In this document: piece after piece, positions 3,649 to 19,649 of the stretch
Layout: each line of letters begins with the position of its first letter
How positions within the stretch are numbered: position 1 is the first letter of the stretch
Assembly (NCBI GenBank): GCA_963924555.1
Contig: OZ004585.1
Coordinates: 310,001-374,000, forward strand
DNA length: 64,000 nucleotides
Reading direction: 5' to 3'
From: Crambe crambe
Taxonomy: Eukaryota; Porifera; Demospongiae; Poecilosclerida; Crambeidae
Program-made: the position numbers and the translations under genes
Notes under the pieces: model-generated
The model's database searches: none
Told to the model about the DNA's origin: nothing
Seen by the model: only the letters and a program-made list of their open reading frames with translations

Positions 3649-6600
3649 TTAGACCATAGATCGTAGGGGTTGAGGGTGAGGTTCCTCTTCATCTCCCTTG
3701 TTGGGCACCACATTCACCCTCCCTTTCTTCACTTTCTTCAACTTTGAGAGTGCAGAGGGACTAGAGCTCCCCGTCGGAATTCGAGAACGCCCATTCCCAT
3801 ATGCCGTCACACCCCCATTTCCTTCAGCGGGATTGGACACGAACATTTCCAGAATGGAATTGTCTTTAGTGATCTCTCTCAAACTCCTGTCCGGACGTGA
3901 CAAGTTCTCCATGCTCCCACTTCTACCAGAACTCAAGTCATCTGTCAGAGTCACATCAACATCCTTGTTGCCCTCTCCGGCTTCTTTCGATCCTCTATTT
4001 AACATTCCAGAGGAGGTACTTGTCAAATTTGAGTTCATTGATGGTGACGAAGAAGTCTTCTTCAAGATGGATTTCTTTGGTTCTGATAATCCGATCGTTT
4101 CTGCAGCTGAGGATCCAGCAGTACCAGGGACGTCAAACACATACTGTCTCTGAAGATGACGATCAGCCATTGATTTCTTCAGCTTTGTCATTTTGTTTAG
4201 CTTGGGGGCGGAGATGGGCTCTTGAGGGGACAGAGAAGGGGAGTGCTCTGTGGAGAAGTTGGAGGAGTCTGATATTCCACCCGTGGAATGTCGGTTTAGG
4301 TTCTTCGCTAAAGATGGCTCACTGGTAGAGCTGTGGGGATAAAGGGAAAGTTTGGAACAATGATAAGAATGCTATACAATAAACCTCCCAATAAAGGACA
4401 ACCTCTATATAAAATACAACCTCTAAATATAGCACAACCTCTAAATAAAGGGCATCTAAAGGATAATTAATAAAGGAAAATTGTTGAGAACAAGGACACA
4501 CACCCCACCACACCACTTACTCTGAAGACTGCAGCTTCCCTTCTCTGACGATTTCCCTGAGGGTAATTAGAGGGATAGCCCCTCTCGTTTCTTTCCTCTT
4601 CAACTGCTTAGCATGCTGCCCCGTCCGAAGAGCATCCCACCCTTTACCAGCCGTAGGCGTTTCAGGACGAACTCTTCCTTCATCTTTACTCTTTTGAAGA
4701 TACTGAGACACGATATCAGAGAAATTCATAGTTCCCTCCTCTTTCGATTTCTGCTTCTTCAAGTTAGCAGTGACTTTCTTGGAAGCTTCTAATAAGGTCA
4801 TGTGACGCTTCTTGGGAACTTCCTCTTCCTCTTTGAGTAACTCATCGGTCGTTTCCTTCAAAACTGCTTGAGTGGCTATGACACGATTGAACAGAGTCTT
4901 CTGTCTAGACTGCAAGCTTGCTGATTTAGGTGCCGTTGGGGAAAGCCCAGTATTATTAAGATGTTTTGTGGATCCATTTAAACTTGGTACTTGAGCGATC
5001 TCCTCCAGATTCCGGTTGACATTGGTAGGTGCTGGAGTCGTAGCTCGTTCTGGTTCTTGGTTCTTCAGCATCTCAACGAGATTTGCGAGCTGTGGTCTCT
5101 GTTTTGGTCTCCAAACTTTATGCATCTCTCCTTCTCGGAGGAAAGGAGTCTTAGCGTTCTTGCGTCTGCCGGATCCCAGTGCGAATTCAAGAGTGGAGGG
5201 TCTTGCATCGTGATCACGCAGTCGAATCCGTCGAGCCTTAGCCCATCCACCTCCTTCACCCCCTGAGGATGCTGTTGATTCTTTCACACCTGCTTCACCC
5301 ACTTCATGTTCCAGCGATTTTCCCACCATGGATTGCCATTTTCCTTTTATTCTCATACGAGTACGTGGAGTAGTGGGAGTGGAAGGTGTAGTGTTGCCAA
5401 CTGATTCCATTTCCTCTTCTCCTTCAGGGATGACAGCGAGAGGCGTGGTTGCACGTGGCTGAAACCCCTCTCCTTGCCCGCCCTCCTCGTCATCATCATC
5501 TTCGTCTGCTTCTTCTGTTTCGTATCCTTCCTCTTCATCAAGGTCATTACTGAAGCTCTTCTTGAAGCGTGCCGAGTCAGACTTGATCTCCTTGGTCAGC
5601 TGATCCGAAGGTCTCCTGCACAGGGTGATATGGCAATGGAATAGGAATTATGAAAGGGAATGGAAATTCAGAGGGAGTGGAATGGGTATGGGAATTTGTA
5701 GGGAGTAGGATGGGAATGGGGAGTAGAATGGGAATTCAGATGGGAATTAGTGTAATGGGAAGTGGAACAGGAATGGAGAATGGAATGGGAATGGGAAGAA
5801 AATGGAAGAGAATAGAAGAATTGGAATCAGGAATGGAATAGTGGGGAGGGAGAGAATGGGAATGGGGATGAAGATACAGAAGAGGAAGAGCATACCTGAA
5901 GATGACAGATATGATTCTTTTGATTTTGAGACCAACTGATGTGTGACGGAGCCAATTAAGGATTATAGCAAGCAACAGGTAGAAAGTAGTGAAGGACAGC
6001 AGAATCTACAGTCATGTGATAATCATGTGACTCATAATTATCATGTGTACATAAATTTTATGCCCTACTCACCACAATATGGAGGTAAGGATTGATATTA
6101 TTGAAGAAGAATTGCCTTAGGGTGAATGCCCCAGAGCTGGGGTAGCACACGATCTGAGAGCCAGTGCAGGTGTTGAAGTTTTCCAGCAGAAAGAAAGCCA
6201 CAGATGAAAAGCCGTAGTAGTTGGGGTTAATATAAGCTATCCAGCGATATCTGAACACACAGACAGACAGATAGACAGACACCATCGTGGTTATGTTTTA
6301 GTAGAGTGATAAAATATGCTAATGTACCGTGTGAAAATTTTGGTGGGGGAAATTTGTGTGTGGGTTTGAACTAGTCTCATGAACCAGACCCTACGCGCAA
6401 AAAAGCGGAAGGGTCTGGTGAGTGTGCTATACCAGTTTTGTTGCATTCCCCAGGAATTTAAACGATGATACTTTGCATGTATTGCTTATGGAGAATCGCA
6501 TGCTCATGTAAAGATTAATAAAATGCAACTGGCTTTGCAAATTATTTTATCACAGTCACAGGATCTAGCAGTTGAACCACATTGACGGAGAAGTCTCATG

Positions 6601-9600
6601 ATATTAGGTTAGCGATAGCAAAGGTAGCAGCTTCACTCGACTTACCGCCGGAAGAGAAAGCAAGAAGAGAGCGCCTTGCGCGCACATGTTATTACTAATG
6701 AGGTTTGTGGGCGTGTAATCAAATTCCTCTGCAACAAAACTGGTATAGCACACTCACCAGACCCTTCCGCTTTTCGTGCATAGGGTCTGGTTCACGAGAC
6801 TAGGTTTGAACCATGAATCACGTGCTTTTCTTTTCTTTCTCTTTTCAAAATCATGAAGTTTTCCCACTATACTACTGACAGTCATAAAGCAAATAGATTC
6901 TTGGGGAAACATTCTGTTGAAAGCAATTTGACAGAGATTTGACAAAATTGCACCCACACCTTAAGGGTTACACGTGTTTTACTTACACCCAGTGGATTCT
7001 GTCAATGGGAATGAAGAAGCCACTAGTGAAGCCAAAGACGCTGGCAAGAGCTGAGGAGAGCCTGAAGGCAATCTTGGGGAGAGCCAACATGAGAGCTATG
7101 AGCATGGCGGTCCAAGTGAGGTTGAGACCCACGTTCACCACGGCCACTTGCAGGAACACAAGGATGTCATACTGGTCACTTCTGATGATCTGAGGGGGAC
7201 AGGAGGAAGGGTCAGAGGGGGAGGAGGGAGGGGAGGGGAGGGGAGGAAGGAGGGGTCAGAGGAGGAGGAAGGAGGGGGAGGAGGGAGGGGAGGGGAGGGG
7301 CGAGGAGGAAGGAGGGATGAGAGGGGGAGGAGGAAGGAGGAGGAGGGAGGGGAGGGGTGAGGAGGAAGGAGGGATGAGAGGGGAGGAGGAAGGAGGGGTG
7401 AGAGGGGGAGGAAGAGGGAGGTAAGGGGAGGAGAGGGAGGGTGAGAGGAGGAAGAGGGAGGGGTGGGAGGGGGAAGAGGCAAGGGAGGGGTGGGAGGAGA
7501 CTTACCAAGAGATAAATGAGTCCAGTGGACAAGATAACAGGGATGAATGCAATGGTGATGTAGCGTATGAACCCTTGTATGACCAGGTCCTGTGACCGTC
7601 CCACCCCATCGGCCCGTTCGTAGGTATACACTCGTAATGCAGGGGTGTAGTAGATCTCAATGGCAGGGAAGACAAAGAGACCACTAGCCACAGAGAACAC
7701 ACACATACCAGCCACTATTAGGAAGGGATTCTTTCGTTGAAAATAGACAGTACCTGAAAAAGGAGAAATATAAGATTGAATAATACAGTGGGAGGACCTC
7801 GGAAAGTCTTTAATCGTTCTTACCAAGGACAAGAGCAAAGATGAAGAAGACGATGGGGAGGAAGGCCAACTGATTGAGGAGGATTCGTTTAGCTATTCGT
7901 GCCTCCAGTGCAGCCATGCGAACAAAATTGCCAGCATGACGGTTCCCAGCCTGCACAGAACATGAAAACAGCAATGACATACAATGTCATGGTAACCAAG
8001 CTGGAAAGAAATTAAATGCCGACATCATTGAACATTACAGGGGCTCACAATAACAACTCAGGTCACAGGACATTAATTTTTCCAGTCAATTTCTTCATTA
8101 ATTTTGTCAGGCCATTTCTGCCTTTGTCCAGACCATTATAACTGTATATTAGATAATCATGTCCACTGTTACTATGAGCCCTCCTTATGATGATGTATGA
8201 TGACACCTTTTGCTATTGTGAATTGCCATACAGTGGAACCTCCAATTAAGGGCACTGTGAAAGAGGACATTAAACCTCTCAACAAAGGAAGTACGATACA
8301 AAATAACAGGACAACCTCTCTGCTAAGGAGAAAAGGCTGGCCGGGTCTCAAGTGTGTCCATTATTCGGAGGTTCCAATGTACTTAGCCCTACCTGGCATT
8401 CATTAAGGCGCCTTAGCCCTACCTGGCACAGCATTCATTAAGGCGCAATGTAATAGCTGTCCCATGATAATTGTGATTCTAGACAGTTTTGTTCAACATT
8501 GACTTACCCTCTTAGCACCAAAGAGAGCAAAATCCAAGGCAGATTTGACAGAGTTGACGGAGGAGGAAGACTGACTGTACCCCTTCCAGCGTGCCATCTT
8601 GACCGCTCTTTCCACTAGTTTGGGCTCCCTGGACTCTTGGTAGTACTCTGTTAGCACACGTCGGAAGCTTGGGTTGCCCAGCATGTCCATAACCACGTCT
8701 ACAGGGGGAAAATAAAAACTTATAAATCAAAGGGGCTCAATATGAGCTGCAAGATCTGGTAAAGGGTAGACCCATTAATTATTAATTATAGGGGCTCCAC
8801 TATAATGAGGGGATTATTAACAGGGGCTATGAAAATACATGATCATAAATCTGGTAAAGGGTATGCCATTATGGATTCTAAAGCGAATTCGGCCTGGGTA
8901 GGGTTGTCATTCGGACCTGCTGGGTTGTGGTCCTCCAGGGAGGGGATGATGAGTCCCTTCTGCAGATAGCGAGTTCGCAGTGCACTCACAAAAACCTCGT
9001 AGGACTTCTCAGGAGCACCATGATAGGCAACCTACACACAGTAACAACAGTGTCACGACATCATTAACAAAGATTAAAAGTCTATTATTTTCAATAGAAT
9101 TAGTTCTCATAAAATTAGCTTATGAAACAAACCACCAACGTTTCGACCAGAATACTCTAGCCTTCATCAGGGTGATACAAAAAATGCACACAGAAACGTC
9201 CTTATATAGCTACGCTTGTTATCTAGACAACGCACATGCAAACGCCTATGGATATTATATTATAGCATGCCAATACCTGAAGTCATAAACACTATTTCCC
9301 TAAGGCTTTAAGCGTAAAAACCCAGCAACCTTGAAGTTCTAGACCTGAAGGCTAGAGTATTCTGGTCGAAACGTTGGTGGTTTGTTTCATAAGCTAATTT
9401 TATGAGAACTAATTCTATTGAATTTTTATCATGTTAGCTGAGAATAATAAGCAGAGTTTGAATTTTCAAGTTCTATTATTTTGTTCACTATTCGTCAGAA
9501 TGTTCACTAACTTGCCAAATACCACAACAATTCACCCACTCACGCTCTCTCTATTAATGTCCTTAGTTGTTATACACTCTGTAGCGTCTTCAAGCGGAAA

Positions 9601-10981
9601 ATTGGGCCAAGAATTGAGGAATTGTAGACAGCATTTAATTAAGATGACAAGACACACCTTATAAATGAGATCACTAGCCATGGATACTTAACTATTTTAC
9701 CTTGCCATCTGAAAGAAGGACAAGTTTGTGGAACATGTGGAAGATCTCGAGACGTGGTTGATGGATGGTGAGGATAACCGTGCGATTGGAGTCTGCCAGT
9801 TTGTTGAGGTGAGAGAGAAGCTCCATGGAAGATGTGGCGTCCAGTCCTACACCATGCACAACGTATGCATAACACATAATATTATGATCAATCACATACT
9901 ATAGGGTACTGGATGTTTGCGGGTTCCAGTCCACAACACATGCAGAATACATGCACAACACATGCAGAATACATGCAGAATACATGCACAACACATGCAG
10001 AATATATGCACAACACATGCAGAATACATGCACAACACACTACATCCTAATCATTTCGGTAATATGGATATACATGTTTGGCTACTAAATCAGAGTGTGT
10101 GGTAAACTCTGATAAAAGGACACTCTGAAAGAGGACAAGGTTCAAAGGACAATCTAAAAGGACGTATATGCTCTTACAAAATAACCTATAAAAGAGGACA
10201 TTTCTCTACAAAGGACAGAATGCTGGTTCCCAAATGTGTCCATTAGGGTTCCACTGTTGTTGAGATACCTTTGTACGTACCTGAAGTGGGTTCATCCAGG
10301 AAGATGATGCTGGGAAGTTTGAGAAGTTGGAGGGCCACCACCAATCGCTTCTTCTGTCCTCCGCTCAATCCCGGTCCTGTCTCTCCGCCCACCACTGTGT
10401 CTGCCAAGTTCGAAAGTCCAGTCTGAGGGAGAAGCAAAATTGGATACGGCATTTAAAACTCAGTAAATTAATGTACAGTGGAATCATTGATAGAGGACAC
10501 TCCGAAAGAGGACAAACTTCTCAACAAAGGACAATCTAAAAGTACCTTTGTATGATCATACACTCTATACAAAATAACCTCCAAAAGAGGACAACCTCTC
10601 TACAAAGAACAAAAGGATGGGTCCCAAATCTGTCCTTATTCAGAGGTTCCACTGTATTGTATCAGATTCTATTTAGAAACTCCCTAAAATATGATTGCAC
10701 ATCTGGTGATGTCATATGATGTCATGTGACAGCAATGCACTCACCACTTCCATGACTTGTTCCACTCTCTTGAACTTCTCACGGATGGTGAACTTGGAAT
10801 GGAGCTTGATCTGTGCTGCTAACGTCAGATTGTCACGCACGGTCAGTTCCTCATAATAGGGCGTGGCCAACTGGAGGACGTAGCCAGTGTTGGGAACATA
10901 CCAGTCACGAATTTCTTCCATTGGAATACCATTGATGTAGATATCACCCTGAAGGAATAAAGAAAGGACCATTGAGAGAGA

Positions 10982-11014
<33 letters not shown>

Positions 11015-14000
11015 CCTTACTCCACTAGTTCCTGTGCGACGTCTTCCAGTGAGTACATCGAGGAATGTGGTTTTTCCGCAGCCAGAAGGCCCCATGATGC
11101 CAATCATTTCCCCCGGGTTGAAGTAGATGGAGATCCCCTTTAGGATCTCCTTAGTGATTGTCTTTTGGCAGCCACAGGCATTGTAAGATGGTTCGTCGTC
11201 CTCTATTGGAATAGGAGGCTAAAGGGGAGGGGAGGGGGAGGGGTTAAAGAGGAAGTGGTCAAGTGGGAAGGGGATAGAGGGGAGAGGGGATCAATGTACA
11301 TGCGTACCAATGGAGGAGGAGGAGGGGCTGGAGGGATCACACCTGGTGGAACAGAATAATTCCCCGGCTGGCCTTTATCCGCATCCTGGTCCAGATGGAC
11401 ACTCCGCTACAAGGAGAGCAGAAAAAATGTTAGTCTGAAAATACCTAGCTTATTTTCTAGTCGACTTACTCTGTTGTGGATGACACTGTCTCGTATCTGG
11501 AAGAGTCTGCTCTGCCTCTTCAGCAGACGAGACTGTCGACGACTGTTCAGTGATTTCTCAGCTAGAAAGAAAGGTAAATCACATAGCCACAACCTTTTAA
11601 TTAATCAGCCACATCCCTTTAATTAATTAGGCATACCTTTTCTGCTTGGCACTTATTGGATAGCCTTTTTGAAAGGAAGTGAATCATAATTAATTTGGTC
11701 ACAGAAGTCATTAAAACCACACCCCTTTAATTAATTTGGTCACAGCCTTTTACTTATTGGATAGCCTTTTGATGCTTATAATAAGCTCATTCAAAACACC
11801 ACTTAAAGCCAGGTTACACTCACCCTCATTGGCAGCCTTTTGCTGCTCGGTGAGCTCATTGAGGACAACAGCCTCAGTCTGGTCCTTTCGCTCATCCTTG
11901 ACTTGCTTGGTCTTGAAGGTGACGGTGTAGGTGAGGTCCAGGCAAGACACTGAGATGGCCGAGTTCTCGTCACACTCTGGGAACTACGAGAGAGAGATGG
12001 AGGGAGGGAGGGAGGGAGAAGGGGGAGAAGAAGGTTGGGACAAGGTGACGTTAAGTAAACCACGAACAATTATTCCACTTTCCTAGGCTCATCTAAACAA
12101 GCATCTTAATTGTCAAAACCAAGTATACTTTTAAGACCAAAATTCTTGGAAAAGACATGGCAAAGTGGGGGTGTGTTGATCTAAGGCCCTGGATATTATC
12201 CCTAAGTAAACATTGAACTCTCAAGCATCTTCAAAACAAGATGATGGATAACGCACTCAAAGAAATGGGGCAAGTCAGATCACAACAGGTGTTTTTCAAT
12301 ACACGTACGCCACACGTTGCGTTTATGTTTATAGTTATTCTGCTTATTGCTTAAAACAACAACTCTCCCTCTGATGACCAGTTGGCACGAGAGTTGATGC
12401 TTCATTACCATGCCATCAAAATCTCATCTCCCAGGGGGGACCATCAGTGTCGTTATTCAACCACATGCCATATGTCATGTTGTTGTTAAATATGACCCAC
12501 TGCTATGTAAATACACTTACTGAATATGTAGCTATGGGTTACCTGAGTTTTGCAGGTCAACTATTATTATGGTCAAAATGAAAAATCCCAAAGACAGTTA
12601 ACCTCAATGAAGGGCCACATCTCTGTATAGCAGGAGAATCAAACAACACCAAAATCATCTTTTAATTAATCCCCTTTGAAACCTCTAATTGGTTCCTTCA
12701 AAGGGCTGCTGATAGAAATATCGCTTCTTTTCAAGCCTTTACTTTTTGTATCGGTTTGCCTTTCTCCTTTGTGTTACTTTGAGTCAACTCCAGGACGTTT
12801 ACTTTCAAGTCAGACCCAAAAACAAAAGAATAAGTCGGGATGCTTCCACCTTAATTTCTATAGCACCTTTCCCAAGGCACCTCTCAAAACTCTCTTGAGG
12901 AACCTTAGTTTTCATGAACAAAGTGGTTGGGCTAGGCCTAGGGTGGGGGGGGGGGGGGGGGGGGGGGGTGTAGGGCTACAGAGGTGGGCCCTGTAACCTC
13001 TAATATGTACCTGCAGTACAGACTCTTGTCCAATCAGCTCCTCGTCGAGTGAGTCCAGGTAATTATCCTGCTTCTTCTCCAGTCGATACAACCACAATAC
13101 AAAAGCAGTCTTCATGCAGAGACAGATGAGAGCCAATCCAATCACAAGTCCCGCGATCACTGCTTTGGCTGCCACTGGCCAGTTGTTAGAAGTGAGGTCA
13201 CCAAGGGTGAAGCGGTCTGGACACATGGTATTGCATTGTGGCCCCTGGCAAGTGTCAAAGAACCGGACATTGTTACTGGAGTTGTACCACATGCGCAGGG
13301 CGGAGATGGTACTCAAATGAGTGTTATTGAGGGACGAAAGGTTTTCGTTCCAACGTCCTGAGGCTATAGAGTGGCTGCAAAGTGGGAGAAAGGGAGGGGA
13401 CGTAAGAGAGGAAGGGAGTGGCATAATGGTGGGTATGACAAAAGGGAGGTAAAGAGGAGGGATGGTGGGTGTGGCAAAGGGGGAGGGGATGTGACACACA
13501 GGGAGCAGAAGTGGCATATGGAGTGGAGGGTATGGGTAAAAGGGGAGGGCAAAGGGTGTGACCAATGAAGGGGTGTGGTCAGGGGCAGAAAGAGGGTGTG
13601 GCAAAGGGGAGGGGTGAGAGGATGTTGATATGGCAACTCAGAAATTCAATACTTCTGGAACAGGATGGGGGGGAGTAGTTTTCAGGGAAATGGTACTTAT
13701 TAAGGCTTATGTAGGGATGCATGTTTGCAATTCATGAAAAGGAAAGAATCACATTAAAGATGTAGAAGGGAAAGTCTCTCTCGTCTCACTCTCTCTCTTT
13801 CATCTTTCCCTCACACACACACTCCCTCTCCTCAGCTAGACTACTGTGTGTATGTATGTATGTATGTATGTCTGTATGTATGTATGTATGTATGTAAAGA
13901 GGGTAATAGTGAAATTTGATCTTAAGTAAGGACATCAATTGTCTCAACCACCACCAGGAAGTATTAAGGAAACAAACCTTAAACTTCACACTACTTTAAT

Positions 14001-16580
14001 ACCTCTCCAATACAAGAGCCATGAAGGTTATGCTAAGGACTTTATCTCATTATCAGTTGATGGACAGACCCAACTCCTCCATTCTTTTCTTCACTGTTCA
14101 CACTTAGTTAAGTGCGTACCACCTCTCTAAACTACCATCTCTCTAAACTACCATATCTCTCTCTCTCTCTAAACTACTACCTCTTTAAACTACCATCTCT
14201 CTCTAAACTACCACCTCTCTAAACTACCATCTCTCTTATTTATTCCAATTGAAGAGCCAAGAAAAAATTTATACGTATGGATGGTCAGAACGTCTGATTA
14301 GCTCTCAAATTAGAGTGATGCATCACTTAGAAAGAATGCGTGAGAGTGAAGTCTTCATCACAAAAAATTAATACAGTAGTTCAGATAATACAGTGGAAGT
14401 CTGCACTGGGGACACCTCTATACTGCAGGACAATTTCCAAGGTCTCAAAGTGTCCACAATAGGGAATTATTTTCAGCCATGGCCGAATGGTCAGGAATAA
14501 CAAACAGGAAAGATAAGATATTTACTGAGCATACAGCAAATGTAATTGCCATGAATAGGACCAATTGGTCCATATAATTAAATTTGGTACGGTCCATTAA
14601 GCAATGCATTGCAATGCAATATCAGAGGTCCCAACTCTTCATTCCTAGAAAGAGACGCTTTGTTCCTAGAAAGAGATGTAATCTCTTCCTAGAAAGAGAG
14701 GCTCTTGAATGACTACAATCAACTCTAACGATATTAAATTCTCAGCTATGAGTTGACTGCATACCTGAAGCTGCCAAGTCCTCTAGTGAACTCGATGGAA
14801 GAATTTCCAAAAACTGATCCATCTCCCCCCCAGAGGGTTGAAGTGGCAAAGTACACGTGTTGGAAGCACTGCGTCAGGTAGTAACTCAGAAACGACACCT
14901 GCAAGTATCATGGCACATGAATATCATGTGATCTCAAACTATGGTCCATGATCCACAAAACTAAAACACAATCTTCAATTTAGAAATTTTGTTATGCTGA
15001 ATTAATGTACTATTCCTTCAAATTTCCCTAACAGTTTGACATATTGCTTAAAGTACTCACTGAAGTGTATGTCTCTGAGAGAGTGGTGTTCATCACTCCG
15101 CCATACTCTCCCACAATGCGCAGGAGACGGATGAGAAAGTCTGTGGTTGCGGTCTGGTTGCTGGCATCGATGGATTCCAAATCTGTAATACCCGCCAAGG
15201 AAGGAGCAAGAAGGAACGCATCGTACACGCTAGTCAGTAGGAACGTTCGCTGTCCACCCTCAGGAAAGAACGCTAGTTGTCCTGATTGGTTTCTCATCGT
15301 CATGACACAGCTAGCAGAGATGCAGCAAGGGTATCCGAGGTCGGTGTTGGCACATGAGGGGTGGCTTGCAAGGAGACCCACCAGACGGTTGCGAGTGGCA
15401 TTGCGAGTTGATTGGTTGTCTTGGGAGGTGACGCCGTTGAAGATTCGGAGGATGTTATCCTGGAAGTTGATGAACCACGAGGAATCGGCGATAAGGAGGA
15501 GGTTGGCCCCCGACGGCATTTCCTCTCGCACCCACTGGGCCAAGTTAATGGCTCCCAAGCCTCCTGCACTGGATCCCCCTGCATCAACCACACATACATA
15601 CATTCGTAACATATCATTAGTCCCAACCCCTCCCACAAATATCTAATACTTTTGTTGTTGTTAAAGCCATGGATGATTGTAGTTGTGCCCTCCCTTCTCC
15701 AATATCTATTGTTGTTATTGTTATTGTTATCATTGTTATTGAAAGCCATGGATAATTACGTAGCCATGCCCTTATAATTCCACCTTGAAGTTATCCAATA
15801 TTTGTTGTTGTTGTTGTTGTTGTTGTTGTTGATATACAACAATTAATAAATCGATAGGGCCACATCCCATATTATTAACTGACAGAGGAATGGGCTCGGG
15901 ACATCTATCCAACATGATTAATTCAGTTAGACAATGTTCAGCAGATACATTGCAATCTACATAGTCATAGTCTAGAATCCTCAAATTCTCTACATCACAA
16001 GAGAGTGTTTGTTATTACCTCTCTTATGGTAAGTTCAAATTTGGTCAAGACTCCGTTAGTAACCTCACACTTGAGGTCAAAAACAAAAGTAATATTATTT
16101 TGTAAATATTATGTAAACTGACCCAGTATGATCTCGGAGGCTACATTCATGCCGAGGCCCAGCAGCTGGTTGAAAATGCTCTGGAATATGATCTTCCCTC
16201 GGAAGGCAAACTGTAATTGGGGAGAGTCTGGCTGGTAACCGAAACAGTCCAAGTCTGAGCAATCGCAACTGGAATTCGGATGCGTTGGTAAAACTTCACT
16301 GGCCAGCCACAAATCGCTGCTGCAGTATGGAATGAGAACGTGATTATGAGCGTAGAAATCAGGATTTTGGTCCTGATTCGTGCTGAGTAGGTCTCTGCCT
16401 TTAATGGAGAAGTTTGTGCCGAAGCTAGTGCTGTTTCTAAAGCACATCATTGACGTCATGAGGGGATTGACGTAGCTCTCGTATGGATTGCTTCTGTGAT
16501 TATTGAAAACCACTTGGGGGTTAAAGTTTCCAAAGGGATCATCAGCACTTATTGAGTTACCATTACCAGTATCACGAACC

Positions 16581-16664
<84 letters not shown>

Positions 16665-19649
16665 ACAATAATTTATATATGCCAAGCTGATCTGTCTTTT
16701 GTGATCTCTGTCAGAAGACTCAACACTCACATGAGATGCATTAGTTTTGTCATTCAGATCATTGCTGCATACTTTTTTAATGAATAGAAATTTTAAAAAT
16801 TCAAAACAGAATGAAAAGTATGCTTTCATTGGAAGGAAATTACTACGTGATTGAAGCAATTTCTCAAATTTTATTGGATGTCAATAAGTCTCCTACGACA
16901 TTAACATGGTACACATGCAAGCCTTCTCCACACCACACGTGCACTGGCCATCAGCTCCACTACACCTCAACCATCAGCTCCACTAAGCCTTCTCCACACC
17001 CTACACCCTGGCCATCAGCTCCACTACATTCTGTTCTCCAATGAAGGCATAAGTAGCCAGCCTTACCCATACCCTCAATGCCCCCTCGCATCCATGCAGG
17101 CCGGCCCACTTTACGAGGCTACCATACCCATGCAAGGCACTTTACTAAAGTGTGTCACACAGAGATGTCACAACTTTGGGAAAACATGATGATCTTGGGA
17201 TGTTTTTTTTCTTCTTCAAGATGGCATATGATAAGATGCTAGCTCTTGGGAAGGATGTCACCATAGCAATGAGGAGATGGGTATGATAAGATAATGTCAC
17301 GTCTGACGTTTGGGCCTGGTGCTCAGGCCTTCCTCAGGGGATACAATCACAAAACTGAAACACACACACACACAACACACACGGTGAGATGACTTATAAA
17401 GGCTTAGCCAGCTGACGTAATATGTGATGCATGCCTGGTTATGATAAGGTAGTATAGTGGGGGTGAAATTTCACAAGGAAGCCTAAAACCATGGATACTT
17501 CATATCATGACATATTAATTATCGCACCTGAAGAGGAGGGCTTAAAAGAAAGGGTGGTTTGCTTGAGGCCAACCATTGTCCCCCATGTCAGATTTATGTG
17601 GGGTAGAATTTCCTGTTTTTTTTGTAGTATAACTCAACTTAATTTCCAGTGGTACATACTGTGAAACTTGTATTCAGAGATCATTAAGACCACCTTGGTT
17701 ATATGACTGTCCCTATGGTGCTCGTACCATTGATTTTGACCCTCTGTAAAGAGACCATCTCGTACCCTATTCAGAGACCACCTCTCTTTAAAGACCACCT
17801 TGGTTATGTCCTTGTATACCACCTCCATTAAGAGACCACCTTTTGGTGGCCCAGAGGTGGTCGCTACGGAGACGAGAGAATAAAGGGTGTGGCCAGCTAG
17901 CCATGGAATTAGAAGACATGAGGTGCACTTAGAGACAATAGGAGGTGCGAAATTACCACCAAAGAGCATTGTCGCTTAATGAAGATGAAAAAGATGTAGT
18001 CAATGAGATGAAAGAAGGTGTAAATCTGAGGGTGTCATTGTCAGCGATGAGTTAATTATTTATTAATGAGGTCAAGACGCACTTGAAATAGTTCATCCTC
18101 TTTATTGAAATCATAGGAAGCAGTTATCATGTTGGGGACACAACCTCTGACACTTTATACCAGATCATACTATATACTAGGACATCTCATACCACACTAG
18201 GACATCTCACGTACAGGACACAAGGACGTACACCTGTACGTACGTATCACATGTATATATAATAGGATACTAATTCATGTGATACAGAAGCCATGCATTG
18301 GCGTCACACTTAAAAATTAGTCGTCTAGTCCTTTCATCAGATACCAGCATCTCCTACCTACTGATCCAGCAGTAATTTTAGTTTCTGAGCCTAGCTGCCG
18401 AAAATACTTGGATTTGGATGAAAAGTATATCTGGTAAGAAAATTCACAGAGACTCTAGCTGAGATGCTTTCTAGGGATAGAGGATGCATGTCACATTCAA
18501 TACTTATTCGATTCTTGTTAATCTTGAAATACAAGCTGAGGAATCAACAAGCTATGTATGTGTGTACAGAGAGAAACCCTATCAATAAATAATATTTATC
18601 GAGCTAGTCACTGACTTTATATTCATAACTTTAAGGGTAAAGTTCAAGGCTCACAGCTGCACCTCAAGCTCACATGCACACGATATACACAGTACACACG
18701 ATATACACAGTACACACGCAAAAATGTGCAGAGTTGCACATGCGCAACATGATACAGCTGCTTTGTGGTTAAATTCCCAGCGACCATCTTACACCTAGCC
18801 ATCTTGTAGCTTTTGACTGTGGCCAGTACTACATCCTACCTCTAAGCTGTAGTATAATGATTGATTATTAATGTGAGTTATGGAGTTATCAATAATTTAT
18901 CTTACATATAAGGTAGCTTTTATCAGATGGGCTGAGATTGTAACAAAAACATTCACAGAGCACCAGCTGCCAGCTGGCTGGCCACCCCAACTAATATGCT
19001 CCATTGATTATTTTCTCAGGTGCAAAATTGCTTCAGAAAAAGTAATGGGGCTGGACTTAAAGTAAGTACAATATTGCTTCAGAAAAAGTAATGGGGCTGG
19101 AATCAAAGTAAGTACAATATTGCTTCAGAAAAAGTAATGGGGCTGGACTCAAAGTAAGTACAATATTGCTTCAGAAAAAGTAATGGGGCTGGAGTCAAAG
19201 TAAATACGATGTGTAGTTTATAGTAATAACATTAATAAGCAATAAGCAGCTAAAAGAATAACAAAACATGTGCCTTCAAATTCCAGGTGTGAAAACTAAC
19301 CATATACTTCCAACTATTGTTACACGAATCTGCATCAGCACCTTGGAAGTAACTAGGACAACTCATTAACACCTCGACTTACTTGACGGTTGAAGAAGCG
19401 TCGGTTGCAAGTCTCGTTAGAGTAACATAAGCTCCCACTCTCCAGGAAGATGATCCACTTATTCGAATTAGAATTCCTCCTCAGGAAAAAACCAGCCCTT
19501 GTGAAGTCATTGCACACAGCACTCTCATTTGAAGCTAGGTTCCATCGCATAACTTCTTCACCAGCACTCTGCGCGCAGAAATGCCCTCCCAAAAGTAGAA
19601 AGAAGCATAGCCCTAGCAGAAGGTTGCAGGGAAACTGCGATCCCTCCAT
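3649..19649 (-). CDS. Fusion protein: Notum/pectinacetylesterase-like ectodomain + ABCG half-transporter + long tail
   Basis: Twenty-one exons join in phase to about 1,898 residues: 19383-19649, 16123-16579, 15061-15578, 14765-14898, 13011-13374, 11824-11983, 11470-11561, 11341-11406, 11021-11218, 10745-10948, 10281-10422, 9701-9846, 8917-9031, 8508-8698, 7824-7950, 7506-7753, 6987-7189, 6073-6250, 5896-6005, 4521-5615 and 3649-4330. Residues 1-30 are a signal peptide. About 35-540 are a Notum/PAE-type alpha/beta hydrolase with GGSSAGG (nucleophile near 244), SVYDAF (likely Asp) and CFQHVY (candidate His). A membrane helix follows near 525-550. The ABCG ATPase has GPSGCGKTT, LSGGQKKR, IIFLDEP and TIHQPR, all intact. 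Six membrane segments and a Cys-bearing last loop (CTGSQIVC) follow. The last ~600 residues are Ser/Lys/Glu-rich and look disordered. Topology is consistent: hydrolase outside, ATPase and tail inside. Substrate unknown. The donor after exon 8 (GGT|gtgatc) is weak. Confidence 0.8.
4374..4462. repeat. Short degenerate repeat of the unit ACCTCTAAATAAAGG
   Basis: Four to five imperfect copies of a ~20 bp unit (AACCTCCCAATAAAGGAC, AACCTCTATATAAAATAC, AACCTCTAAATATAGCAC, AACCTCTAAATAAAGGGC). The unit resembles the inside of family-A MITEs, so this is probably a decayed or expanded piece of one. It lies in the last intron of the fusion gene. Confidence 0.5.
6364..6813. mobile_element. Foldback element with ~80 bp inverted arms
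   Basis: The left arm starts TTTGAACTAGTCTCATGAAC and the right arm ends CACGAGACTAGGTTTGAACC. Both arms hold GGGTCTGGTGAGTGTGCTAT or its complement and then CCAGTTTTGTTGCA. The ~280 bp between the arms has no reading frame of note. It sits in an intron of the fusion gene. A similar end (TAGTCTCGCGAGCCAGAC) occurs near 19894, upstream of the same gene. Confidence 0.7.
7200..7500 (-). repeat. ~300 bp polypyrimidine tract (CCTCCC/CCCTCC on the gene strand) ending at a 3' splice site
   Basis: Nearly pure purine on the plus strand (GGGAGG, GAGGAGG, GGAGGAAGG units), so nearly pure pyrimidine on the transcribed gene's sense strand. It occupies almost all of the intron between two transporter exons and abuts the acceptor at 7190. 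Long overlapping reading frames here are composition artefacts. Confidence 0.8.
8229..8381 (+). mobile_element. MITE, family A, in a fusion-gene intron
   Basis: A clean copy with both ends: TACAGTGGAACCTCC at the left and GGAGGTTCCAATGTA at the right, both flanked by TA. TA flanks and this inverted end suggest a Tc1/mariner or pogo-like source. Confidence 0.75.
9125..9180 (-). ncRNA. Hammerhead ribozyme-like motif, copy 1
   Basis: On the minus strand the order is CACC, CTGATGA, a stem, GAAAC, GTT, GGTG. The catalytic boxes CUGAUGA and GAAA are exact. Between them AGGCTAGAGTATTCTGGTC folds into a 7 bp stem II (two G-U pairs) with a short loop. ACGU after GAA can act as the minimal palindromic stem III seen in Penelope-like and retrozyme hammerheads. 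GGTG and CACC can pair to start stem I, with the cleavable U between. Folding was done by hand. Confidence 0.55.
9340..9395 (+). ncRNA. Hammerhead-like motif, copy 2 (degenerate core)
   Basis: The inverted partner of copy 1 on the plus strand. It keeps stem II (GGCTAGAGTATTCTGGTC) and the GAAACGTTGGTGG side but has CTGAAGG where copy 1 has CTGATGAAGG, so the core is incomplete and it is probably inactive. Confidence 0.5.
9920..10045. repeat. Minisatellite of ACATGCAGAAT / ACATGCACAAC units
   Basis: About nine tandem units of 11 bp alternating between ACATGCAGAAT and ACATGCACAAC, inside an intron of the fusion gene. Simple slippage-type repeat. Confidence 0.75.
10103..10258 (+). mobile_element. 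MITE, family A (partly decayed)
   Basis: Runs from AAACTCTGATAAAAGGACAC to GGGTTCCACTGTTG with the usual internal blocks (GAAAGAGGACAA, TACAAAATAACCT, CCCAAATGTGTCCATTAG). The left end is lost. Abuts the exon carrying Walker B. Confidence 0.65.
10474..10656 (+). mobile_element. MITE, family A (both ends present)
   Basis: Left end TACAGTGGAATCATTGATAG, right end CAGAGGTTCCACTGTA. The full internal order is present, including TATACAAAATAACCTCCAAA and GGATGGGTCCCAAAT. Only about 220 bases from the preceding copy, in the next intron. Confidence 0.75.
12945..12968. repeat. Poly-G run (24 bases)
   Basis: Uninterrupted G run in the intron between the hydrolase-TM exon and the first ATPase exon. 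Such runs are assembly-sensitive and can form G-quadruplexes; the exact length is unreliable. Confidence 0.7.
13848..13895. repeat. (TGTA)n microsatellite
   Basis: About ten TGTA/TGTC units in the intron before the hydrolase-TM exon. Nothing else is recognisable around it. Confidence 0.75.
14389..14465 (+). mobile_element. MITE, family B (short copy)
   Basis: Begins ACAGTGGAAGTCTGCACTGG and continues GGACACCTCTATACTG and AAAGTGTCCACAATAGGG. The same GACACCTCTATACTGAGGAC/GTGTCCACAATAGAGAGG text recurs at 58303-58450 and 61709-61800. The ends resemble family A but the body differs. Confidence 0.55.
16584..16661. repeat. (GA)n microsatellite at an acceptor
   Basis: About 39 GA units on the plus strand, so (CT)n on the gene strand, ending at the CTGTAG acceptor of fusion-gene exon 2 (16579). 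It forms the whole polypyrimidine tract of that 2.8 kb first intron. Confidence 0.85.
17298..17345 (-). ncRNA. Hammerhead-like motif, third locus (degenerate core)
   Basis: On the minus strand the order is CTGAGGA, then AGGCCTGAGCACCAGGCC, then CAAACGTC. Stem II (GGCCTG/CAGGCC, 6 bp) is perfect. Both catalytic boxes differ from consensus by one base (CUGAUGA, GAAA). Position and spacing are as in the copy at 9125-9180, so it looks like a decayed relative. It lies in intron 1 of the fusion gene. Confidence 0.4.
17640..17870. mobile_element. Short repetitive element rich in AGACCACCT units
   Basis: Contains GAGATCATTAAGACCACC, AAAGAGACCATCTCGTACCC, TCAGAGACCACCTCTC and TTAAGAGACCACCTTTTGG, and starts near CCAGTGGTACATACTGTG. 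It looks like another small dispersed element of the MITE kind, but no second copy was seen here, so the family is not assigned. Confidence 0.35.
19027..19204. repeat. Tandem repeat, four copies of a 46 bp unit
   Basis: TTGCTTCAGAAAAAGTAATG starts at 19028, 19074, 19120 and 19166, a strict 46 bp period with one or two differences per copy. Each unit ends AAAGTAAGTACAATA. It lies in intron 1 of the fusion gene. The GTAAGT in each unit resembles a donor site on the opposite strand only. Confidence 0.85.

Follow-up and report, generated by a model that had tools for sequence, protein, structure and literature searches.

Notum is a palmitoleoyl-protein carboxylesterase and a free secreted protein. 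ABCG half-transporters work as dimers and, to our knowledge, begin in the cytosol, without an ectodomain. Here, we analysed a window of 64,000 nucleotides from the sponge Crambe crambe (contig OZ004585.1, positions 310,001 to 374,000), in which a hydrolase of the PAE/Notum type and a transporter of the lipid-pumping ABCG type are read as one chain. Each part belongs to a known family; among the literature matches listed, the combination is without description, and their titles or abstract starts gave no fusion of an ABC transporter with a PAE or Notum domain. It is quite possible that such a fusion is recorded, but undiscussed, as an entry in eukaryotic protein databases. A survey of sponge Wnt components names porcupine and Wntless, and the name Notum is absent at least from its main text (PMC8235796). 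Searches of viral contigs with the PAE part (none confirmed among 106 pattern matches) and the ABC part (0 of 33), and of prokaryotic genome contigs with the PAE part (0 of 62), say little, since these collections are not aimed at holding eukaryotes. As judged from sequence, the hydrolase-ABCG fusion is almost certainly real. The whole proposal, a one-chain gene together with coupling of export to cleavage, stands in our estimate just short of an even chance.

Architecture of the window gene

A three-frame reading of the minus strand from 19649 to 3649 gave 21 exons and 20 GT-AG introns with consistent phases, encoding 1909 amino acids and a stop codon. The original prediction had described 21 exons in phase, and the rebuilding from the DNA bore this out, with homology to a locus on contig C11 for most of the exons. 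Since splice signals were read by eye and exon boundaries set so as to give GT-AG introns in phase, the agreement of all 20 introns is there by construction, and the independent support is homology. Homology to C11 covers exons 1-6, 9-19 and part of 20; exons 7, 8 and 21 are based on open frame and splice sites only, and the donor of exon 13 is weak. The features are as follows (basis in brackets).

19383..19649 (-): exon 1, start codon, signal-peptide-like residues 1-28, start of the PAE/Notum-like domain (model, hydropathy, solved Notum chains, C11 and C19 counterparts)
16123..16579 (-): exon 2, PAE domain (model, Pfam)
15061..15578 (-): exon 3, PAE domain including the nucleophile motif GGSSAGG and the Asp position (YD) (model, Notum match, paralogues)
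14765..14898 (-): exon 4, PAE domain including the His position, CFQHVYFATS (model, paralogues)
13011..13374 (-): exon 5, last part of the PAE domain (CQGPQCNTMCPD), membrane segment at residues 526-557, basic flank (model, paralogues)
11984..13010 (-): intron 5, separating the hydrolase and transporter halves (motif and start-exon scan)
11824..11983 (-): exon 6, junction exon FPECDEN...ISVSCLDLTYTV (model; 68% identity to C11 over 41 codons)
11470..11561 (-): exon 7, charged linker (open frame and splice sites only)
11308..11406 (-): exon 8, proline-rich linker (open frame and splice sites only)
11021..11218 (-): exon 9, Walker A GPSGCGKTT of the ATPase domain (model, Pfam, paralogues)
10745..10948 (-): exon 10, ATPase domain, Q-loop region (model, paralogues)
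10281..10422 (-): exon 11, ABC signature LSGGQKKR and Walker B IIFLDEP (model, paralogues)
9701..9846 (-): exon 12, D-loop and H-loop, TIHQP (model, paralogues)
8917..9031 (-): exon 13, last part of the ATPase domain, weak donor GTCCGA (model, paralogues)
8508..8698 (-): exon 14, last part of the NPAD motif, then the connector to the membrane domain (model, paralogues)
7824..7950 (-): exon 15, ABC2 domain, membrane segment 1 (model, paralogues)
7506..7753 (-): exon 16, membrane segments 2-3 (model, paralogues)
6987..7189 (-): exon 17, membrane segment 4, plus 5 by homology (model, ABCG2 alignment, paralogues)
6073..6250 (-): exon 18, loop joining segments 5 and 6, two cysteines (model, paralogues)
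5896..6005 (-): exon 19, membrane segment 6 (model, paralogues)
4521..5615 (-): exon 20, tail of disorder-prone composition, with a block common to C11 and the C8 503-kb locus (model, homology)
3649..4330 (-): exon 21, tail end and stop codon (open frame and splice sites only)

From the N to the C terminus the chain comprises a signal-like start (residues 1-28), the PAE/Notum-like hydrolase (about 29-520), a hydrophobic segment (526-557), a linker to about 715, the ABC ATPase, the ABC2 membrane domain (about 1057-1300) and a tail to residue 1909. In Pfam, PAE (126.7 bits, best stretch 147-443), ABC_tran (91.9 bits, 723-878) and, following it, ABC2_membrane (41.3 bits, 1065-1239) all scored above their own cut-offs. 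The GGSSAGG, Walker A, LSGGQKKR, Walker B and H-loop motifs named by the original prediction were all found in the rebuilt chain, as were its membrane helix after the hydrolase (the hydropathy segment at 526-557) and its tail of about 600 residues after the ABC2 part. Of the six membrane segments that it also claimed, five rose above the hydropathy threshold in the ABC2 part; the sixth was taken from the ABCG2 alignment, and the homologous C19 model shows six by hydropathy.

The tail gave no Pfam match, and disorder-promoting residues make up more of it than of the ATPase part (0.77 vs 0.60). A block with VW[RK]P and R.K.L.NR is common to the tails of the window gene, C11 and the C8 503-kb locus; it sits within 4521-5615 of the window, L015:750-1283 (C11) and L023:6881-7240. 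A search of the window against Rfam gave no matches.

Paralogous loci and the junction of the two halves

The contigs of the genome were searched exon by exon, and only the best candidates were scored. Since other loci of the same genome repeat the fusion, it represents a genuine type of gene rather than an error of the gene model. On C19, the PAE domain, helix, linker and Walker A lie within one uninterrupted exon of 2026 bp, and an intron-free open frame of 687 codons there matched both PAE (143 bits) and ABC_tran (36.8 bits). As the junction is carried inside a single exon, the fusion is seen there without any splice guess. PAE and ABC2_membrane profile matches lie 4.3 kb apart on the same strand of this contig, and the C19 gene model (9 exons, 1544 amino acids) holds PAE, ABC_tran and ABC2_membrane, each above its cut-off; an additional AAA_21 match (28.1 bits vs a cut-off of 27) is taken as overlap with the ATPase fold. 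The C11 locus has the same order of parts on one strand; three PAE pieces are 49-66% and eight ABC pieces 34-81% identical to the window gene. On C8, a PAE exon at about 503.7-504.1 kb is followed by 5,000 N (504488-509487) and, beyond the gap on the same strand, by the end of the ATPase part, the ABC connector, the membrane domain and a tail-like stretch. The ATPase core would fall inside the gap, so the C8 fusion is one of order across it rather than of a continuous frame. The fusion originally predicted is thus upheld by all three loci, and at least three fusion genes are shown in this genome at the level of predicted genes. A chimera of assembly or gene model was also considered; the single exon of C19 and the C11 locus rule it out.

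For the window gene and C11, pN/pS over five stretches was 0.41, 0.51, 0.37 (the junction exon), 0.27 and 0.17, which we read only as constraint, because pS (0.59-0.85) is near saturation. The C11 linker (L015:3900-4584) contains repeated segments, LKCLQQPHHK.DPMEP and K.KTTR..SRVR, which suggest that linker sequence was duplicated locally. The first PAE exon also has a brief match (C8:498542-498664) some 5 kb upstream of the C8 503-kb locus, perhaps a duplicated remnant.

The window junction was found as predicted, with exon 5 ending in SVLQ at 13011 and exon 6 starting with FPECDEN at 11983, in phase 0. Could these be two adjacent genes, a hydrolase and an ABCG transporter, wrongly joined across intron 5? 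The intron is 1027 bases long, read-through from exon 5 meets a stop after 32 codons, and there is one ATTAAA (at 12666) and no AATAAA within it. It also holds 22 weak ATG-to-GT frames of 1-32 codons that would end in phase 0. The claim that the ATPase part has no nearby start therefore stands only in part: such frames are present, but a start exon with a good donor is not, as all 22 end at hexamers that belong neither to 11 common donors nor to the donors of the gene's other introns. A separate ABCG gene starting in intron 5 was rejected on this ground, though a weak-donor alternative start of the ABC half could exist there. Moreover, C11 has a phase-0 intron (1804 bases) at the homologous junction, before its own junction exon (FIECDERNKISVTCLDLSY); when the window and C11 introns were compared by short words, no alignment was better than E 0.79; and the single C19 exon contradicts separate genes for the family as a whole. 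A wrong joining is thus, in our judgement, highly improbable. The read-through stop and the ATTAAA make a short hydrolase isoform, stopping 32 codons into intron 5, possible, though nothing demands it.

Searched against the genome, the PAE part of the window gene gave 13 matches, confined to the four fusion loci (C8 with its gap) and the fragment at C8:498542. The ABC part gave 75 matches (73 of 101 candidates scored), and all 13 of those beginning at query residue 305 or later, in the membrane domain, lie at the four fusion loci. In a PF01061 search, which was incomplete since it missed C11 and the C8 503-kb locus, seven of nine matches fell on C18, C12 and C20, contigs without a PAE match, so that unfused ABCG-type genes exist too. 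The PAE family likewise occurs by itself: C14:7179003-7183659 is a one-strand array of PAE genes (one exon with 135.5 bits to PAE), in which a GCSG-type motif replaces the GSSAG/GSSSG of the fused genes. Within C14 7170000-7187500, neither the ABC part of the window gene nor that of C19 was matched at E 1e-3.

Putative catalytic residues and predicted topology

Sequence supports the PAE/Notum family label for the hydrolase half, with PF03283 scores of 126.7 bits for the window chain and 140.4 bits for the C19 model against a cut-off of 26.6, and with Notum chains making up all eight solved structures among the matches listed for the window PAE part. Residues S245 (GSSAGG), D361 and H428, candidates for the Ser-Asp-His catalytic triad of the Notum type, are invariant in the three readable copies (window, C11 and C19). 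The significant alignment with Notum covers the N-terminal and Ser regions only. The Asp position was matched by motif only; the C19 equivalent of the His region aligns with APSC..H of Notum in one chain, below significance, and the alignment of the C-terminal Cys motif is below significance as well. It seems likely that the hydrolase half is active.

The GGW.C of the solved Notum chains reads SGSLC in the window gene and C11, GGGGC in C19 and SGGFC in the C8 503-kb exon, with the tryptophan replaced by S in the first two and by G in the others. This tryptophan presumably has a role in the lipid pocket of Notum, and its replacement at all four loci argues against an unchanged palmitoleate pocket.

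The ABC family label for the transporter half is also supported. Walker A, Q-loop, signature, Walker B and H-loop are intact and invariant in the window gene, C11 (whose row of the alignment was assembled by eye) and C19, and the half is very probably ATP-driven. ABCG2 aligns over residues 1-537 of the window ABC query. The highest total score among solved relatives belongs to the Pdr5/CDR1 type (204.3 bits over two halves), with 178.8 bits for ABCG2.

The signal-like start and the hydropathy scan, with one segment between the PAE domain and the ABC part, predict a hydrolase outside the cell and an ATPase in the cytosol. The window PAE part contains 14 N-glycosylation sequons in 492 residues (shuffle mean 8.4; 14 reached in 2.35% of 2000 shuffles), and the linker plus ATPase only 3 in 471. 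For C19, the excess in the PAE part is less clear (10 sequons, shuffle mean 6.1; 5.6% of shuffles), and the tail, predicted to be cytosolic, shows an excess too (4 sequons, mean 1.4; 4.2%). Sequons are thus soft evidence for the topology.

Possible function and comparison with known systems

Our preferred reading is that the attached hydrolase acts on the molecule that the transporter moves, so that export is followed by ester cleavage at the exit; we put it a little under even. A secreted-type Notum/PAE ester hydrolase would sit outside the cell, anchored by a single membrane helix, and on the cytosolic side would lie the ABCG ATPase, followed by the six-helix ABCG membrane domain and the long, disorder-prone tail, which may regulate or place the protein. 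Because ABCG half-transporters dimerise, two hydrolase domains would stand over the outer mouth of the pump. The pump's cargo may be a lipid, acylated or esterified, that it brings to the outer leaflet, where the attached hydrolases could cut the ester bond on emergence and so make release irreversible. Such coupling fits the predicted topology. More tentatively, and with the balance somewhat against it, we propose an export-and-cleave family, in which an ABCG pump hands an ester lipid to a covalently attached Notum-type site and a processed lipid, or a signal freed of its lipid, is released in one step.

The main rival is an enzyme that is simply tethered: the ABCG part would mainly deliver it, anchor it or serve another task, and the hydrolase would cut an unrelated ester of the surface or matrix, with no handover of substrate. 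The stand-alone PAE genes of C14 agree with this, and a single-helix anchor alone would be enough for tethering; however, complete ATPase motifs in three paralogues exceed what an anchor needs. We consider simple tethering a serious possibility, though doubtful. The fusion proteins could also be this animal's Notum, removing palmitoleate from Wnt at the surface while the ABCG part clears or flips the freed lipid. Wnt genes are present (14 exon matches), and the solved structures matched by the PAE part are Notum chains, but the GGW.C tryptophan is replaced at every fusion locus and one stand-alone C14 PAE exon matches Notum as well. A Notum role is thus unlikely, and the Wnt link hinted at in the original prediction finds no support as regards Wnt as substrate. 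Nine of the 14 Wnt matches form a one-strand cluster at C18:6389139-6395802.

An extracellular enzyme attached covalently to an ABC transporter would offer a handle on ABCG cargo, as the hydrolase should act on or beside that cargo. If the pair cooperates, lipid export would be linked to a family of enzymes controlling acylated signals in animals.

The fusion genes share their PAE family with the C14 array, beside which the window and C19 ABC queries gave no match at E 1e-3. They resemble Notum in the PAE match and the GSSAGG nucleophile region and, weakly, in the Asp and His positions and the Cys-rich C-terminal motif, but their chain is not a stand-alone secreted enzyme, as Notum in the strict sense is: behind the hydrolase the frame continues into a membrane helix and a transporter, and the GGW.C tryptophan is changed. 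With ABCG1, ABCG2 and ABCG5/8 they have in common an ATPase placed before the membrane domain, the ATPase motifs and two cysteines in the last loop. In contrast to these half-transporters, the predicted chain does not begin in the cytosol without an ectodomain, since a signal-like segment, a PAE domain of about 500 residues and an extra helix precede the ATPase, and a long linker and a tail of about 600 residues are added. The Pdr5/CDR1-type fungal pleiotropic drug resistance transporters are double-length chains, whereas the fusion has one ATPase and one membrane domain.
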